Shown one piece after another: positions 4,274 through 44,023 of a DNA stretch of 51,128 nucleotides; the stretch's first letter is position 1; every line of letters begins with the position of its first letter. The stretch comes from an uncultured Oscillospiraceae bacterium (GTDB lineage: Bacteria; Bacillota; Clostridia; Oscillospirales; Oscillospiraceae), in assembly GCA_944387075.1 (NCBI GenBank), contig CALXDO010000018.1, positions 1 through 51,128 of the forward strand, written 5' to 3'. The position numbers were made by a program, and so were the translations under genes. Under the pieces are notes generated by a model. The model had not been told where the DNA came from, made no database searches, and worked only from the letters and a program-made list of their open reading frames with translations.

Positions 4274-5470
4274 TCACTGGAATTCCTTTAAAAATGCCTC
4301 CAAGCGATCCATGCCCTTCTGAATGTTCTCCATGGAAGTCGCATAAGACCAGCGCACAAAATTGGGAGCACCAAAGGCGGTACCGGGCACCGTGGCCACC
4401 AGACCATACTTGAGGAATGCCTGAGAGAAGTCATCGCAGGTCTCAATGACCTGACCCCGCACACTGCGGCCAACCAGCTTTTCCATATTCATCATCACAT
4501 AGAAGGCACCTTCGGGCTTGATGCAGCTGACACCCTCTACCTGGTTCATCCGCTCTACCAAGTAGTTCCGCCGTTCTTCAAACGCCTGTCGCATCTCTTC
4601 AATCTTATTCTGAGGACCGTTAAGCGCAGCCTGGGCAGCCGCCTGAGAGATCGTGCAGCAAGAACCGGCACAGTGGCTGAGATAATTGCTCATGACCTTG
4701 ATGACCTCTGGCTCAGCCATAGCGTAACCAATACGCCAACCGGTCATGGCATAGGCCTTGGAAACTCCGTTGATGAGGATGGTACGCTTTTTCACCTCTT
4801 CGCCCAAACTGGCAACGGAAGTAAACTTCAGCCCGTCATAGAGCAAGCAAGCGTAGATCTCATCGGCAATGATATACAGATCCTTCTCCACACACACATC
4901 GGCCAGGGACTGCAATTCCTCTCGGTTGTACACCATGCCGGTGGGGTTGGAGGGATTGTTGAGAATGACGGCTTTCGTCTTATCTGTCACTGCATTTCGC
5001 AGCTGTTGTGCCGTAATCTTAAACCCAGCAGACTCCTGGGCTGTGACGATTACAGGTACACCACCCATCATGCGGATGAGTTCCACATAGCTGACCCAGT
5101 ACGGGGCAGGCAAAATGACTTCATCCCCAGGATTAACCAGGGCACGCAGGGCCAGATACACGCAGTGCTTGGCCCCGCCAGCCACCACAACTTGGGAAGG
5201 CTGATAATCCACCTGGAAATCCGCCTTCATGCGGGCACACACCGCCTCCTTCAGCCCGAGAGTACCAGAAGCGGGAGTATACCGGGTGTTGTTCTCCTCA
5301 ATAGCCCGGATGCCAGCGGCCTTGATTTCGTCCGGTGTGTTAAAGTCCGGCTCACCAGCACCAAATCCAATTACATCAATTCCGTCTGCTTTCATCTGCT
5401 TGGCCAGAGAATCAATGGCCATGGTGCTGGATGCCTGTACCTGAGAGGCAAGAAGCGACAATTCTTTCAA
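4274..5470 (-). CDS. pyridoxal-phosphate aminotransferase class I (AspB/PatA-like)
   Basis: A 398-aa fold-type I aminotransferase, probably aspartate or aromatic/branched amino acid specific. Motifs include G-A-G-E-P-D-F-N-T-P (N-terminal substrate loop), N-N-P-S-N-P-T-G, A-D-E-I-Y (PLP Asp/Tyr), N-G-V-S-K-A-Y-A-M-T-G-W-R (PLP Lys in S-K) and a C-terminal substrate-binding Arg in N-F-V-R. The chosen start is a TTG at 5470 because GGAGG lies seven bases before it. An ATG 18 bp further upstream would swallow the ribosome binding site into the gene. Transcribed alone from 5503-5531. Exact substrate cannot be read from the sequence. Confidence 0.93.
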   Translation of the reverse strand: MKELSLLASQVQASSTMAIDSLAKQMKADGIDVIGFGAGEPDFNTPDEIKAAGIRAIEENNTRYTPASGTLGLKEAVCARMKADFQVDYQPSQVVVAGGAKHCVYLALRALVNPGDEVILPAPYWVSYVELIRMMGGVPVIVTAQESAGFKITAQQLRNAVTDKTKAVILNNPSNPTGMVYNREELQSLADVCVEKDLYIIADEIYACLLYDGLKFTSVASLGEEVKKRTILINGVSKAYAMTGWRIGYAMAEPEVIKVMSNYLSHCAGSCCTISQAAAQAALNGPQNKIEEMRQAFEERRNYLVERMNQVEGVSCIKPEGAFYVMMNMEKLVGRSVRGQVIETCDDFSQAFLKYGLVATVPGTAFGAPNFVRWSYATSMENIQKGMDRLEAFLKEFQ

Positions 5471-5502
5471 GTCAATCCCTCCGTACACTGATTTTATGAC
5501 AC

Positions 5503-5531
5503 ATTATATCGCGTTTCTTGCATAATTGCAA
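5503..5531 (-). promoter_or_regulatory. sigma-A promoter of the aminotransferase gene
   Basis: TTGCAA (5526-5531), 17 bp, TATAAT (5503-5508) on the minus strand. The -35 again sits within CTCTTGCAA. The -10 is perfect and lies about 33 bp before the TTG start. Confidence 0.8.
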
Positions 5532-5588: not shown

Positions 5589-6371
5589 TCATCGTGTGCG
5601 CTTGGTTGTATTTTTGCAGTAGAGAAAGTAGAGACCCTTGACCATCAAATCCCGGTCATACTCGATGGAGTGACAGCAATGGCGGAAGATTTCCGGGGCA
5701 TACTCCCCGGTAGCCACGATGGAGGCCGCAGGTTCCCCCGCTGCGTGCTCCATCTCATCAATGAGACGGTCGATGGAGCCAGCATAGCCGTACACCACAC
5801 CCGCTCTCATAGAGTCCACCGTATTGCGCCCCAGTGGGGTGTCCACTTTTCCCATGGCAATATGGGGCAACTGTGCCCCATGATCTGAAAGGGCCTCCAG
5901 GGCAATGGCCATACCTGGCATGATGGCGCACCCTTCATAGGATGCCTGCCTCATGTAAGAGAAGGACAGGGCCGTTCCTGAGTTAATCACAAGGGACGGG
6001 GATGGATACACGGCCACCGCCGCCACTGCCGAGGCTACAATGTTGCTGCCTAGCTGGTTATGGACATCTGCTCGAATGTTCAGGCCTGTCTTGACCCCCG
6101 GGCCCACCACCATGGCCCGCTTTCCGGTCAACCGCTGAATGGCCCGCACAAAGACATCCGTGATTGGGGGAACTACGCTGGACACAATGGCCCCGTGTAC
6201 CTCCCGAATGTGCCCGCCGTACAGCTGAAACACACCCATTAAATCCAAGGCACAGCGGTCCTCGCTGTATCTGCGCTCAGTTTCCAGCTCTGAGCGGAAT
6301 CGGATGTCCCCATTCTCCTCAAACAGTGCGATGGTGACGTGTATGTTGCTAATGGCCACAGCCAAGATCAA
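5589..6371 (-). CDS. degenerate CoaX-family protein (type III pantothenate kinase-like), probably inactive
   Basis: A 260-aa protein that follows the CoaX fold from end to end. The C-terminal half is well kept: Y-E-G-C-A-I-M-P-G, L-E-A-L-S, L-G-R-N-T-V-D-S-M-R-A-G-V-V-Y-G-Y and I-V-A-T-G-E-Y-A-P. The catalytic positions are changed. The first phosphate motif, normally D-x-G-N-T, reads A-I-S-N-I. The GAD motif carrying the general base reads G-S-N. The D-x-G-T-A-T-T motif reads N-S-G-T-A-L-S. All three Asp residues are therefore gone while the frame is intact, which points to a retained pseudoenzyme, for example a regulator or scaffold. The start is a TTG at 6371 with AAAGGGG nine bases upstream; a TTG at 6380 is less well placed. 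It has its own promoter. Compare the type II pantothenate kinase at 43208. Confidence 0.85.
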   Translation of the reverse strand: MILAVAISNIHVTIALFEENGDIRFRSELETERRYSEDRCALDLMGVFQLYGGHIREVHGAIVSSVVPPITDVFVRAIQRLTGKRAMVVGPGVKTGLNIRADVHNQLGSNIVASAVAAVAVYPSPSLVINSGTALSFSYMRQASYEGCAIMPGMAIALEALSDHGAQLPHIAMGKVDTPLGRNTVDSMRAGVVYGYAGSIDRLIDEMEHAAGEPAASIVATGEYAPEIFRHCCHSIEYDRDLMVKGLYFLYCKNTTKRTR

Positions 6372-6412
6372 AGTGCCCAACCCCTTTGTCTACTGAAAAT
6401 ACTATTGCTACC

Positions 6413-6441
6413 ATTATAGCCGTGGAGAAAGGGCATTGCAA
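6413..6441 (-). promoter_or_regulatory. sigma-A promoter of the CoaX-like gene
   Basis: TTGCAA (6436-6441), 17 bp, TATAAT (6413-6418) on the minus strand, about 40 bp before the TTG start and directly after the leuB terminator. The -35 is part of CTCTTGCAA. Confidence 0.8.
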
Positions 6442-6445
6442 GAGC

Positions 6446-6480
6446 AAACCTCCGTCCCTGAAGCTATGGGACGGAGGTTT
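6446..6480 (-). terminator. terminator of the leuCDB operon
   Basis: Perfect 12-bp arms (AAACCTCCGTCC and complement) with an 11-base loop, beginning 8 bp after the leuB stop on the minus strand. A short T-run follows in both directions. Confidence 0.8.
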
Positions 6481-6487
6481 TTCACTC

Positions 6488-7564
6488 TCAGATGTTATCT
6501 CGAATAATTTGTCCCATCTGACGGGTGCCAACGATAGACTCACCGGGCTTAGCAATGTCAGCCGTGCGCCAACCATCTGCCAGAGCTTTGTCCACCGCTC
6601 GCTCCACAGCATCAGCCTCTTGGGCCAGGTGGAAGGAGTAGCGGAACATCATAGCCACGGAGAGAATGGTAGCAATGGGGTTTGCCTTGTCCTGTCCGGC
6701 AATGTCCGGAGCAGAGCCGTGAATGGGCTCGTAGAGGGCTGGGGCGGTATCTCCCATGGAGGCCGATGGGAGCAGCCCAATGGAGCCGGTAATCATGGAG
6801 GCCTCATCGGAGAGGATGTCTCCAAACATGTTCTCCGTCACCACCACATCGAACTGGCCGGGGTCCCGCACCAGCTGCATAGCGCAGTTGTCCACCAGTA
6901 CATCCTCATAGGCCACGTCGGGATATTCCTTTGCCAGACGGTGCATCACAGACCGCCACAGGCGGCTGGTTTCCAGCACGTTGGCTTTGTCCACGCTGGA
7001 CACCTTGTTCCGTCTCAGCCGAGCCATTTCAAAGGCACGGCGGCCAATGCGCTCAATCTCCATTTCAGAATAGGCCATCAGGTCGGTGCACTCGACGCCC
7101 CGATCCGGAGTCTCATAGCGATCCCGCTTGCCAAAGTACACACCGCCGGTCAGTTCCCGCACCATCATCAAATCAATGCCTTTTTCGGCCGTCTCCTTCT
7201 TCAGCGGACAGGCCTCAGCCAGAGCCGGGCGCAGCGCGGCGGGACGCAGGTTTGCATACAGGCCCAAATCCTTGCGAATGGCCAGCAGGGCTGTTTCCGG
7301 ACGCTGCTCAGCGGGCTTGTCACTGCCCCATTTGGGGCCACCCACAGCACCTAGCAGCACTGCGTCACAGCTTTTGCATATCTCGGCAGTACCGTCAGGG
7401 TAACTCTTGCCCACCGCGTCCGTAGCGCAGCCACCCAGCAGCACATCCACATAGATAAAGGTGTGTCCGAACTTCTCCCCCACCCTGTTGATAACACCCA
7501 CCGCTTCATCCACGATCTCTGGGCCGATTCCATCCCCCCGAATGAGAGCAATTTTATAATTCAT
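6488..7564 (-). CDS. leuB: 3-isopropylmalate dehydrogenase
   Basis: LeuB oxidises and decarboxylates 3-isopropylmalate with NAD+, giving 2-oxoisocaproate in leucine synthesis. The 358-aa length is normal. Seen are the N-terminal [18 protein letters not shown] (substrate loop with Tyr), K-A-N-V-L (catalytic Lys), D-N-C-A-M-Q-L-V-R and [10 protein letters not shown] (metal Asp residues), and H-G-S-A-P-D-I-A (NAD loop, NAD-type). It overlaps leuD by four bases (ATGA) and is the last gene of leuC-leuD-leuB. No leuA or ilv gene is in the window. Confidence 0.97.
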
Positions 7565-8046
7565 TTGGCGATCCCCCTCGCTTTGAGAGAATGGAGCAGG
7601 CCGCCGTTTTCAATGATGCCGTTGACAAAGGTGGGGAACGGCGCGGCCTGAAAGGTTTCCCCGGTGGTCTGGTTCTCAATAACCCCGGTGGCAAAGTCCA
7701 CGGTGATGCTGTCCCCAGGAGAAATGCCATCCACAGCCTGGGGGCATTCCATAATGGGAAAACCGATGTTGATGGCGTTGCGGTAGAAGATGCGGGCAAA
7801 GCTCTTGGCGATGACGCATTTCACCCCGCAGGCTTTGATGGCCAGCGGAGCATGCTCTCGGGAAGAGCCGCAGCCGAAGTTGCTGCCGCCCACCACAATG
7901 TCCCCCGGCTCTACTGTGCTGGCAAAGTCGGCGTCGATGTCCTCCATGCAGTGGGAGGCCAAGGACTTCTCGTCTGGGGCGTTGAGGTAACGGGCTGGGA
8001 TAATGACGTCGGTATCCACATTGTCGCCGTATTTATAAATCTTCAT
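7561..8046 (-). CDS. leuD: 3-isopropylmalate dehydratase small subunit
   Basis: LeuD is the swivel-domain subunit that pairs with LeuC to isomerise 2- to 3-isopropylmalate. At 161 aa it is the short clostridial/archaeal type. It shows [16 protein letters not shown] near the N-terminus and [14 protein letters not shown] (substrate-binding loop with SSREHA) at about 53-66. It sits 15 bp after leuC and overlaps leuB by four bases. Confidence 0.97.
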
Positions 8047-8061
8047 TTCATCATCCCTCCC

Positions 8062-9321
8062 TTAAACGGTGGCGGGGTCCGTGACCACGCCGGTGATGGC
8101 AGAAGCCGCTGCCACAGCAGGGCTGGCCAAAATAACCATGGAACTGGTGGGGCCCATGCGGCCTACAAAGTTCCGGTTGGTGGTGGCAATGGCCCACTCA
8201 TTGTCACTGAGTACGCCCATATGTCCGCCCAGGCAAGGGCCGCAGGTGGGGGTGGACACCGCTGCACCAGCCTGGATGAAGTCGGCAATCAGTCCCTCTT
8301 CCATGGCCTGGAGGTAAATCTGCTGGGTGGCGGGGATGACAATGCAGCGTACGCCGTCAGCCACCTTTTTCCCCCGGAGAATGGCGGCAGCCTCCCGTAA
8401 ATCCTTCAATCGGCCATTGGTACAAGAGCCAATAACCACCTGCTGAATGGGCTTGCCTGCCACTTCGTCCACCGGCTTGGTGTTGGAAGGCAGATGAGGC
8501 AGGGCCACCGTGGGACGCAATGTCGACAAATCAATCTCCACCGTACGGGCATACTGGGCATCCTCATCCGCTTGGAACGAGGTCCAGACCCGCTCCACCC
8601 GTCCGTTGAGATAAGCAATGGTCTTTTCATCCACGGGGAAGATTCCGTTTTTGGCTCCCGCCTCAATAGCCATGTTGCAAATGGTAAAGCGGTCGTCCAT
8701 CTCCAGGGAGGTCACGCCGTCCCCGTAGAACTCCAGGGACTGATAGAGTGCCCCATCCACTCCGATCATACCGATGAGGTGGAGCACCACATCCTTGCCG
8801 CTGACATAGGGGGAGAGTTTACCAGTGAGCTTCACCTGGATGGCCTGGGGTACTTTGAACCAAGCCAGACCTGTGGCCATACCGGCCGCCATGTCGGTGG
8901 AGCCCACACCGGTGGAGAAGGCCCCCAGGGCGCCGTATGTACAAGTGTGGGAGTCTGCTCCAATGATGACCTCGCCAGGGGCAGCCAATCCCTTTTCCGG
9001 AATGAGCGCATGCTCAATGCCCATCTGGCCCACGTCATAGAAATGGGTGATCTGGTGTTTGTGGGCAAAGTCCCGGCAAATGGCACACAGCTGCGCGGAC
9101 TTGATGTCCTTGCAAGGGGTGGAGTGGTCCAGCACAATGGCAATTTTATCCTTGTCAAAGACGGTGGACAGTCCCGCCTTCTCAAACTCCTTGATGGCCA
9201 CCGGGGTTGTAATGTCGTTGCCCAGCACCAAATCCAGTTTGCCCTCAATGAGCTGTCCAGCCTGCACCTGGTCCAGGCCGGCAGCCCGGGCCAGAATCTT
9301 CTGCGTCATGGTCATTCCCAC
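8062..9321 (-). CDS. leuC: 3-isopropylmalate dehydratase large subunit
   Basis: LeuC carries the [4Fe-4S] cluster of isopropylmalate isomerase. Cluster Cys residues are visible in G-S-C-T-N-G-R and in C-G-P-C-L-G-G-H, and an [12 protein letters not shown] motif lies about residue 105-120. The start is taken as GTG at 9321: GGAGG is eight bases upstream, and the resulting [10 protein letters not shown] is the usual clostridial N-terminus. An ATG at 9402 would run into the promoter region. The protein has 419 aa. First gene of leuCDB, divergent from a Crp/Fnr regulator that may control it. Confidence 0.96.
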
Positions 9322-9358
9322 GAAACGCACCTCCTCAATCCTCAAGTTTCTTGACCTC

Positions 9359-9364
9359 ATTATG
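9359..9364 (-). promoter_or_regulatory. candidate -10 of the leuCDB promoter, without a good -35
   Basis: CATAAT on the minus strand, about 38 bp before the leuC GTG. No TTGACA-like element lies 16-18 bp upstream. That fits a promoter needing an activator. The dyad at 9386-9401 is centred about 41.5 bp before the start site this -10 would give. Confidence 0.45.
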
Positions 9365-9385
9365 CCAAACTCTCTGGAAAAAGAA

Positions 9386-9401
9386 TGTAACATATGATAC
9401 A
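9386..9401. promoter_or_regulatory. candidate Crp/Fnr-family operator
   Basis: TGTAACATATGATACA is a 16-bp dyad, symmetric at 14 of 16 positions, with TGTA-like outer halves as in Crp-type sites (TGTGA-N6-TCACA). It overlaps the probable -10 of the regulator gene and lies upstream of leuC. Binding by the adjacent regulator is inferred. Confidence 0.5.
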
Positions 9402-9403
9402 AT
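9398..9403 (+). promoter_or_regulatory. candidate -10 of the Crp/Fnr regulator gene
   Basis: TACAAT, 23 bp before the ATG of the regulator. A weak -35 (TGGAAA, 9375-9380) lies 17 bp upstream. The element overlaps the dyad, so binding there should repress the gene. Confidence 0.45.
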
Positions 9404-9426: not shown

Positions 9427-10032
9427 ATGGCACAGTGGGACATGTTTGCTCAGGGGCAAGTCCCCAAATTATATTCCAAGGGCCAGTTGATTTATATGCA
9501 GGGGGAGATTCCCCGCTTTTTTTACTATCTGGTGTCCGGGTCCGTGCGCAGCTTTCTCAGCAGTCCGGATGGAGATGAACGCATTCTGACCATACATCGA
9601 AGCGGAGATCTGATGGGCGAGGCATCCTTTTTTGACCAATACCCTCGGGTTAGTTCTGCCATGGCCTTGGAGGACAGTCTGGTGGTATCCATTGACCAAC
9701 AGAGGCTGGATCAGATCTTCATGGAGCACCCCCAGTTGGCCCAGCCGTTGCTGCGCTATCTGGCCCGCACCGTGCGTCTGCTTTCCGACCATGTGGACAC
9801 CGCTTCCCTCCCCGCCATTGGGCGTGTGGCCCGGCACTTGCTCACATTGCCCCGAGGAAAGGACAACACTGTGGTGTGCACCCACGAGAGCATCGGGCAG
9901 GCCATCGGCATGAGCCGAATTACCGTCAGCCGGGCCATGAAACAGCTGGGACAACGAGGCTCTATTGAGACAGGGTATGGTGTGGTGCGGATTTTGGACG
10001 AAGGGCTGCTTCAAGTGTTGCAAAACCGATAG
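9427..10032 (+). CDS. Crp/Fnr-family transcription regulator
   Basis: A 201-aa DNA-binding regulator with an N-terminal cyclic-nucleotide-binding-like beta barrel (about 15-115), a dimerisation helix (about 110-140) and a C-terminal Crp-type winged helix. The recognition helix reads G-M-S-R-I-T-V-S-R-A-M-K-Q-L, close to the R-E-T-V-G-R of Crp. There is no N-terminal Cys cluster, so it is not an Fnr-type oxygen sensor; the ligand is unknown. GGAGGTGAT lies before the ATG at 9427. An in-frame ATG 33 bp upstream has no ribosome binding site. It is divergent from leuCDB, 105 bp away, and may regulate that operon and itself. Confidence 0.92.
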   Translation: MAQWDMFAQGQVPKLYSKGQLIYMQGEIPRFFYYLVSGSVRSFLSSPDGDERILTIHRSGDLMGEASFFDQYPRVSSAMALEDSLVVSIDQQRLDQIFMEHPQLAQPLLRYLARTVRLLSDHVDTASLPAIGRVARHLLTLPRGKDNTVVCTHESIGQAIGMSRITVSRAMKQLGQRGSIETGYGVVRILDEGLLQVLQNR

Positions 10033-43207: not shown

Positions 43208-44023
43208 ATGATTTTGGGAATTGATGCCGGAACCAGCGCCGTTAAATTGGCCGTTCTGGACGGAGACCATATCTGTACTACCCATTATCAACCCAATTGT
43301 GAGACCAGCGCCCACACACTTCAACTGGCTTTGGAGCGTTCTGGTATTACATCGCTTCCTCTCACCCATGTGTCTGTCACTGGGCTAAACGGCTCCCGCT
43401 GCAGGGCCGACTGCCTGGGACTGCCCCAATGCACCGTGTCTGAACTGGATGCCATCGGCTGTGCCGGTTGTTTTCTAACCGGAAAGAACGAAGCCCTGGT
43501 GGTCAATATGGGAACCGGAACCACCTTTGTGCTGGCTCAAGGGGGACAATACACACACTTGGGTGGCACTGGCATCGGCGGCGGCACTCTCATGGGCTTG
43601 GGTCGTGGACTGTTGAGGGTTCAAACCCCGGATGAACTGTTCCAGCTGGCCAACCAGGGTGACATCGGGCAGGTAGATCTACGCATTGGAGATCTGTTTG
43701 CAGGCTCTGAAACCCTGGCCCCCACCCTCACTTCCTCCAATCTGGCCAAGGCATCCCCCACCTCTACTCGAGCCGACTGGGCCGCAGGCTTACTGAACCT
43801 GGTTCTGGAGTGTACCGGCACCATGGCCATGCTGGCCTGTAGTTCCCACCCAGTGTCGGATGTGGTGTTGCTGGGTGCTTTGACCCAACTGCCTCAAGCC
43901 CAGGCCCGTTTTCAGGTCTTTACTCAGTTTTACTCCCCCAACTACCTCATCGCCCCCCATGCCGATTGCGCCACTGCCATCGGCACAGCCCTGCTGGCAA
44001 AGGAGAATCACACATGGATTTGA
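43208..44023 (+). CDS. coaW: type II pantothenate kinase
   Basis: Phosphorylates pantothenate, the first step to CoA. The 271-aa protein fits the staphylococcal/eukaryotic type II family of the ASKHA fold: G-I-D-A-G-T-S-A-V-K (ATP phosphate motif with Asp, about 4-13), E-L-D-A-I (probable catalytic Glu, about 79-83), V-V-N-M-G-T-G-T-T (about 98-106) and L-G-G-T-G-I-G-G-G-T (about 118-127). A residue usually Arg just before that last loop is His here. GGAGG precedes the ATG and the gene overlaps rsmA by 10 bp. It may supply the activity that the CoaX-like protein at 5589 has lost. Confidence 0.88.
   Translation: MILGIDAGTSAVKLAVLDGDHICTTHYQPNCETSAHTLQLALERSGITSLPLTHVSVTGLNGSRCRADCLGLPQCTVSELDAIGCAGCFLTGKNEALVVNMGTGTTFVLAQGGQYTHLGGTGIGGGTLMGLGRGLLRVQTPDELFQLANQGDIGQVDLRIGDLFAGSETLAPTLTSSNLAKASPTSTRADWAAGLLNLVLECTGTMAMLACSSHPVSDVVLLGALTQLPQAQARFQVFTQFYSPNYLIAPHADCATAIGTALLAKENHTWI

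Follow-up and report, generated by a model that had tools for sequence, protein, structure and literature searches.

A CoaX paralogue lacking the three catalytic aspartates, encoded between leuB and an aminotransferase gene in an Oscillospiraceae bacterium

An uncultured Oscillospiraceae bacterium carries, between leuB and an aminotransferase gene, a gene whose product is, judged from its sequence, a member of the type III pantothenate kinase (CoaX) fold that fails as a pantothenate kinase, i.e., a CoaX pseudoenzyme in a setting not described in the literature retrieved. This protein, called CoaX2 here, is very probably not a kinase, the lack of activity being predicted from the loss of three aspartates. 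We lean toward its being a non-kinase CoaX paralogue kept for a non-catalytic job, probably ligand sensing or scaffolding. By the window we mean the whole stretch of DNA that was analysed (51,128 nucleotides). A literature search, with subscription papers and preprints outside its scope, returned no paper on the CoaX2 subfamily and none joining pantothenate kinase, Oscillospiraceae and leucine biosynthesis.

The CoaX fold and its catalytic positions

The gene and the three codons of interest are the following.

5589..6371, minus strand: gene of the predicted CoaX2 pseudoenzyme, 260 aa, TTG start (Pfam, PDB alignments, predicted structure)
6354..6356, minus strand: codon 6, Ala at the position of the phosphate-1 Asp (aligned with CoaX structures and with genus orthologues)
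6042..6044, minus strand: codon 110, Asn replacing the Asp of the GAD motif, the general base (same alignments)
5982..5984, minus strand: codon 130, Asn replacing the Asp of the DxGTATT motif (same alignments)

The open reading frame spans 5589-6380 on the minus strand, with a further in-frame TTG upstream at 6380; the start adopted, TTG at 6371, lies nine bases after AAAGGGG. The protein matches the Pfam family Pan_kinase (PF03309) with 148.7 bits for a cut-off of 24.7, over residues 2-205 of 260, and passes the NCBIfam subfamily model TIGR00671 'baf' (152 vs. 58.2 bits). Among the best 25 of its 27 NCBIfam matches no equivalog cut-off is reached, the closest being that of NF009855 (180 vs. 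233 bits). Searching the PDB by sequence retrieved seven distinct solved CoaX-type sequences, Bacillus anthracis CoaX (2h3g) coming first with an E-value of 3e-45.

AlphaFold, run on the monomer with 57 sequences, gave a model of mean pLDDT 91.3 and pTM 0.89, and the CoaX fold is thus predicted to be intact. When the model was submitted to Foldseek, ranks 1-22 were all type III pantothenate kinase structures: it superimposes over its full length on B. anthracis CoaX with a TM score of 0.90 (34% identity in the structural alignment) and reaches 0.88 with the Mycobacterium tuberculosis CoaX hexamer (9b78). Weak structural matches to type II pantothenate kinase were also returned, both families belonging to the ASKHA superfamily. 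The sequence-only reading had held that the length and C-terminal motifs of CoaX are retained, and the full-length fold bears this out, most of these motifs and the NT motif being present. In these traits, the protein resembles type III CoaX (PF03309, TIGR00671); it departs from it by the missing aspartates and by adjoining leuB and an aminotransferase gene. Neither Pfam nor the structure revealed a domain besides the CoaX fold, and at its gathering threshold Rfam returned nothing in the window but two tRNAs, hence no candidate for RNA regulation.

The aspartates of the phosphate-1, GAD and DxGTATT motifs are those we take to be the catalytic residues of CoaX. The proposal that all three are replaced was confirmed by alignment to CoaX structures: positions 6, 110 and 130 are gap-free in the four alignments to solved CoaX proteins that were examined, and all four agree in placing Ala, Asn and Asn there, leaving no alternative alignment with an intact set. 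The phosphate-1 motif has moreover Ser for Gly8. Sequencing error is rejected, as six genomes carry the same substitutions. By the three catalytic aspartates that define CoaX as an enzyme, the window protein, with Ala, Asn and Asn, falls outside.

The CoaX2 subfamily, its locus and the constraint on the gene

CoaX2 was delimited by a profile (A1) made from 15 orthologues of the genus, that of the window among them, and searched in 250 genomes of the family. The subfamily is defined here by an A1 score of at least 257 bits, the next proteins reaching at most 253; its signatures lie around HNQLG, [YF]EGC and LGRNT. The window protein scores 492.8 bits against this profile, which contains it. The CoaX2 clade receives moderate support in a quick tree (SH-aLRT 88), with the long-branched canonical CoaX of locus L088 joining next. 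The 42 genomes of the genus include 40 with a PF03309 match and 39 with a CoaX2 orthologue (38 and the window), among which the incomplete one of G023 (196 aa) was included. In G034 the CoaX-type proteins are two of other kinds, without a CoaX2, and PF03309 matches are lacking from G001 and G039. Left out were an N-terminal CoaX2 fragment of G009 (L051), a genome already represented by its full copy (L026), and a match in G024 under the cut-off (L052, E 0.0097). The window gene belongs to this subfamily and is not the CoaX of the genus that adjoins coaBC.

The features surrounding the window gene are listed below.

6413..6441, minus strand: promoter-like site TTGCAA-17-TATAAT, 10/12 consensus matches, recognisable in the six triple-substituted genomes
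6446..6480, no strand assigned: 13-bp inverted repeat, terminator-like, between leuB and coaX2, read from the sequence
6488..7564, minus strand: leuB, isocitrate/isopropylmalate dehydrogenase family (PF00180, 439.7 bits), frequent coaX2 neighbour
7561..8046, minus strand: leuD-like small subunit (PF00694), so named from its domain and its place in the gene order
8062..9402, minus strand: leuC-like large subunit (PF00330), name from domain and order; the true start may be internal
4274..5488, minus strand: class I/II aminotransferase (PF00155, 271.5 bits), frequent downstream neighbour

The minus strand thus reads leuC, leuD, leuB, coaX2, aminotransferase, trmK, nif3, cwlD, radA. The closest NCBIfam model to the aminotransferase is aspartate transaminase, under its cut-off. 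Upstream of leuC lies an ORF of 184 aa (9469-10023), with no Pfam or NCBIfam match, whose relatives are found near leuC in other genomes of the genus. Neighbours were counted on the same strand within 3 kb, with or without an identity floor. At the 38 CoaX2 loci of the genus other than the window, leuB is present in 31 and the aminotransferase in 36; at those of other genera the figures are 19/42 and 29/42; and at 98 loci of other CoaX proteins they are 0/98 for both. These 98 comprise 60 from a named scan, for most of which 5 kb was taken on either side as far as the contig reached, the rest having mostly 1.5 kb flanks, so that misses are possibly overcounted on both sides. Neither gene is near coaX2 in g82 and g37, and g15 has only the aminotransferase, within flanks of 1.5-3 kb. 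The arrangement with leuB upstream and the aminotransferase downstream, as seen in the window, is therefore frequent in CoaX2 and not universal.

A TTGCA[AT]-17-TATAAT site precedes all six triple-substituted orthologues, and a hairpin similar to that of the window lies upstream of the other five. Over 3.5 kb on both strands, seven promoter-like sites were found for 2.8 expected. The hairpin between leuB and coaX2, which is absent from the list of the terminator scan, suggests that coaX2 would be transcribed from its own promoter. Identical hexamers (TTGCAA-17-TATAAT) stand before coaX2 (6413-6441) and before the aminotransferase gene (5503-5531), and a palindrome, CTTGCA-ATTA-TGCAAG, overlaps the first hexamer of the latter site.

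The reading frame is intact in all six triple-substituted orthologues, all starting with TTG, and ATG is the start in the 33 other orthologues of the genus. In the 15 pairs of these six genomes, dN/dS is 0.015-0.047, with a median of about 0.034 (0.037 in a rerun); as dS ranges over 0.31-1.34 and is mostly near or above 1, these ratios are rough, and the closest pair (dS 0.31) gives 0.033. The median is 0.092 among the CoaX2 of the six other genomes bearing a type II kinase, and 0.174 among the remaining 26 full CoaX2 rows of the genus. For the neighbours in the same six genomes, it amounts to 0.026 (leuB), 0.033 (leuD) and 0.024 (leuC), and the values for the aminotransferase (0.061) and trmK (0.082) are both above that of coaX2. 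A pseudogene is ruled out by these ratios and by the occurrence of the same change in six genomes, which upholds the earlier view that an intact frame behind a near-consensus, still recognisable promoter is not a decaying pseudogene. Among 15 proteins of the genus, 93 columns are invariant, and 50 of them fall in residues 89-113 and 147-202 (81 of the 260 positions), two stretches picked after viewing the alignment that contain the GAD-motif region and the NT motif. All these data make it likely that CoaX2 of the window clade is kept for a non-catalytic function.

Aspartate losses, the type II kinase and the CoA pathway

The triple substitution occurs in six genomes of the genus (G000, G002, G003, G005, G016, and G018), two of which are the Pseudoflavonifractor isolates An44 and An85; their orthologues are 91-94% identical and form one clade in the tree. 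Those of the other 33, which are 55-68% identical to the window protein and often occupy the same locus, differ from it in having lost only the third aspartate. This residue is absent from 39/39 orthologues (Asn in 34, Ile in three, His in two), and Asp6, Gly8 and Asp110 are kept in 33/33 outside the window clade. At residue 132, the Gly of DxG in CoaX, 32 of these 33 have Arg (25) or His (7). Such a side chain could replace a cation in the two-aspartate orthologues. Type III pantothenate kinases are reported to need a monovalent cation.

On the stem of the six, 12 positions became fixed for a residue other than the one conserved among their congeners. Four of them lie in or beside the phosphate-1 and GAD motifs (D6A, G8S, T12V, and D110N), and the remaining eight are scattered and mostly mild. 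Asp6, Gly8 and Asp110 are kept in 39, 40 and 42 of the 42 CoaX2 rows of other genera, respectively, and in 17/17 canonical CoaX rows. That the changes struck the catalytic machinery and left the remainder largely as it was would be the mark of a lost catalysis with a retained, here inferred, function.

Aspartate losses are also found beyond the genus, where 10 of the 42 CoaX2 proteins examined lack one Asp: the first is Asn in g75 (two) and g39 (one), and the third is Glu in g37 (two) and g51 (one), Gly in g38 (one) and Val in g69 (three). Glu may be a working substitute at the third position. In a tree with many weak forks, these losses fall in seven separate lineages besides the window stem, counting the genus-wide one. 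The 30 best-scoring canonical CoaX loci of the family, a biased sample, all keep the three residues, and inspection by eye of another 60 loci, taken from the named scan, showed two deviating proteins. One is a copy in L125 with Gly at the GAD-motif Asp; it belongs to the overlapping tandem coaX pairs seen in other Clostridia (L119 4931-6276, L125 4215-5762, and L130 4215-5774). The other, in another Oscillospiraceae genome (L167 5001-5762), has Gly at the GAD-motif position and Asn at the third, and is apparently, from its residues, an independent degenerate copy outside CoaX2.

That a type II pantothenate kinase is encoded in the same window had been proposed, and a family match was indeed found.

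43208..44023, plus strand: member of the type II pantothenate kinase family (Fumble/CoaW), PF03630 67.8 bits vs. cut-off 28.5

This protein belongs to a different family from CoaX. It stays under the cut-off of the NCBIfam equivalog NF009842 (166.4 vs. 234 bits), and its top PDB sequence match is the type II kinase 4m7x. It is assumed from its sequence to be active and is probably the working kinase of the window genome, performing any pantetheine or pantothenate phosphorylation that is left there.

Twelve of the 42 genomes of the genus have a type II kinase. Asp6 and Asp110 are lost in 6/12 CoaX2 carriers with it vs. 0/27 without it; as the six form one clade, this association is one event. 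The 12 kinase-bearing genomes as a single clade are marginally rejected (p-AU 0.04), with at least two changes of state. The idea that the type II kinase removed selection on catalysis, with the expectation that a survey of genomes would link it to the substitutions, is therefore borne out in part. It agrees with the Asp6 and Asp110 losses, the triple change being confined to six genomes that all bear the kinase. The loss of the third Asp does not support it, 27 of the 39 orthologues without this residue sitting in genomes that lack the kinase; in g37, g51, g75 and g39, too, an Asp is changed without a kinase. The type II kinase as a cause fits the last step of the aspartate loss, not the first.

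The rest of the CoA pathway was surveyed in the same genomes. No CoaBC (TIGR00521, E 1e-10) was found in 34/42 genomes, including that of the window, an 88% complete draft, and G003, listed as 100% complete; the search was positive in 14/14 control genomes, among them Lactococcus lactis, so that a split CoaB/CoaC should register. Among genomes of 90% completeness or more and no more than 5% contamination, CoaBC is present in 5/24. The eight positive genomes, that of An85 among them, are exactly those with another CoaX, whose gene lies within about 1 kb of coaBC in 8/8; in G019, this CoaX has Asn at the third Asp. The coaBC-coaX cluster is patchy in the genus (L010, L005, and L046 among the loci), with an ECF transporter component beside it in L010. 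CoaD is present in 40/42 genomes and PanB exceeds its cut-off in a single one, which is not that of the window; type I CoaA exceeds it in 0/42, with weak partial matches in 16/42. As no CoaBC was found in the window genome, phosphopantothenate from a CoaX kinase would have no visible user there.

The absence of CoaBC does not single out CoaX2, since a large part of the family lacks it, genomes with canonical CoaX included: it exceeds the cut-off in 64 of 250 family genomes, with 13 more showing split-type matches of at least 194 bits. In 17 family genomes where CoaX2 is the sole PF03309 protein, neither CoaBC over the cut-off nor its split type was found; five of them (G084, G109, G122, G185, and G241) give weak matches (E 2e-11 to 9e-9), and the four of these that were inspected span a portion of the N-terminal half and resemble other flavoproteins. 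Where a CoaX2 genome has at least two PF03309 copies, CoaBC is present in 17/25 (15 over the cut-off, two of split type).

In 23 genomes of the genus (G006-G013, G021-G024, G026-G029, G032, G033, G035-G038, and G040; 11 of them at least 90% complete), CoaX2 is the only PanK-type protein over the cut-off, no CoaBC was found, and Asp6 and Asp110 are kept. A catalytic role fits there, which counts against the non-kinase reading; judging from the residues kept, these proteins may still be catalytic, perhaps on pantetheine.

Possible roles of CoaX2

The sequence-only reading had considered a regulatory role possible. A close precedent now speaks for it: CoaX of M. tuberculosis was reported to lack kinase activity (PMC7770189), and PMC12288473 describes it as a non-kinase regulator of the depupylation of PanB that responds to pantothenate. 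From its residue losses, the window CoaX2 is predicted to share this lack of activity, and it too would serve another purpose. M. tuberculosis CoaX differs in that it keeps all three aspartates in the alignment to 9b78, where the window protein has none, and, according to the same sources, in lying with panC and panD and acting through Dop and Pup; the bacterial proteasome is, according to PMC4254994, limited to actinobacteria. It is also a trimer of dimers, and the window CoaX2 was predicted as a monomer only. M. tuberculosis CoaX may therefore serve as an analogy for the window protein and not as a sign of membership, an analogy that makes a ligand-responsive non-kinase our best guess.

The mechanism that we propose starts from a CoaX fold predicted to be intact, the loss of all three catalytic aspartates and a gene under strong purifying selection. 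A small ligand (pantothenate, pantetheine, a CoA-like molecule or a nucleotide) would still be bound in the old substrate pocket, and a CoaX2 dimer or higher oligomer would alter the activity or stability of a partner, itself most likely a product of the leu/aminotransferase locus. The pathways to leucine and to pantothenate share ketoisovalerate as a starting compound, so that a link between the two is chemically sensible. That CoaX2 senses a ligand of the CoA pathway and acts on leucine or aminotransferase metabolism is nevertheless put forward tentatively, as one possibility among several. Pairing with a second, active CoaX would not be a general explanation, as none was found in four of the six genomes (that of the window, G002, G003, and G016), G005 and G018 having one.

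In a less probable alternative, CoaX2 would serve LeuB, LeuCD or the aminotransferase as a structural or stabilising subunit, for which the fold and an oligomer surface would suffice without ligand sensing. The recurrence of the order leuB-coaX2-aminotransferase in several genera, and a constraint on coaX2 as strong as that on the leu genes, are consistent with such a subunit. Gene order alone is however no proof of binding, a promoter-like site and a hairpin separate coaX2 from leuB, and the highly conserved substrate-side stretches are not obviously needed by a pure scaffold. CoaX2 could also still be an enzyme, a divergent kinase using other residues, for example in pantetheine salvage without CoaBC. 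The 23 genomes described above favour this, as does a pantetheine-based life proposed in PMC6593275 for gut bacteria without CoaBC, Clostridiales included; the Asn at the third Asp in the CoaX adjoining coaBC of G019 indicates, in addition, that this change alone may be tolerated. The window clade, which carries a type II kinase, is however also without the general base and the phosphate-1 Asp, and in Bacillus subtilis pantetheine use is reported to need CoaA and not CoaX (PMC11487621). A divergent kinase is hence plausible for the two-aspartate relatives and quite unlikely for the window protein.

The Bvg accessory factor of Bordetella is a CoaX homologue, and a transcription-linked accessory role of this kind would accord with the match to the TIGR00671 'baf' subfamily model; the lack of any domain besides the CoaX fold speaks against it, and we hold it to be slightly less probable still. 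The least probable reading is that of a relaxed remnant in slow decay, made redundant by the type II kinase. The loss of three aspartates, the TTG start shared by the six where ATG is used elsewhere in the genus, and the presence of the type II kinase in all six are what it would predict, but it is largely refuted by the selection test, given dN/dS of 0.015-0.047 at dS of 0.31-1.34, intact frames in six genomes and a recognisable promoter.

Returning to a non-kinase paralogue kept for another job, several consequences follow. The broad NCBIfam subfamily model would label such proteins 'type III pantothenate kinase', and pathway reconstructions, as in PMC6593275, take CoaX as the first CoA enzyme; both are very probably wrong for the window clade. 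The question is also raised of which enzyme phosphorylates pantetheine in the 23 genomes that have CoaX2 alone and no detected CoaBC. Natural intermediates exist within the genus, orthologues at one locus having two aspartates or none, in genomes that do or do not carry a type II kinase. Since other genera retain the full three, the route from metabolic kinase to non-enzyme is testable. In its widest and quite speculative form, the proposal would be that of an Oscillospiraceae family of CoaX paralogues, vertically inherited, whose dispensable kinase chemistry was eroded repeatedly and which couples CoA-vitamer status to leucine/ketoisovalerate metabolism, the window clade being its fully non-catalytic end state and, next to that of M. 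tuberculosis, a second metabolic sensor derived from CoaX by independent evolution. If CoaX2 of the window clade does respond to a ligand, it would be a second regulator derived from CoaX and would link leucine to vitamin B5 in gut bacteria.
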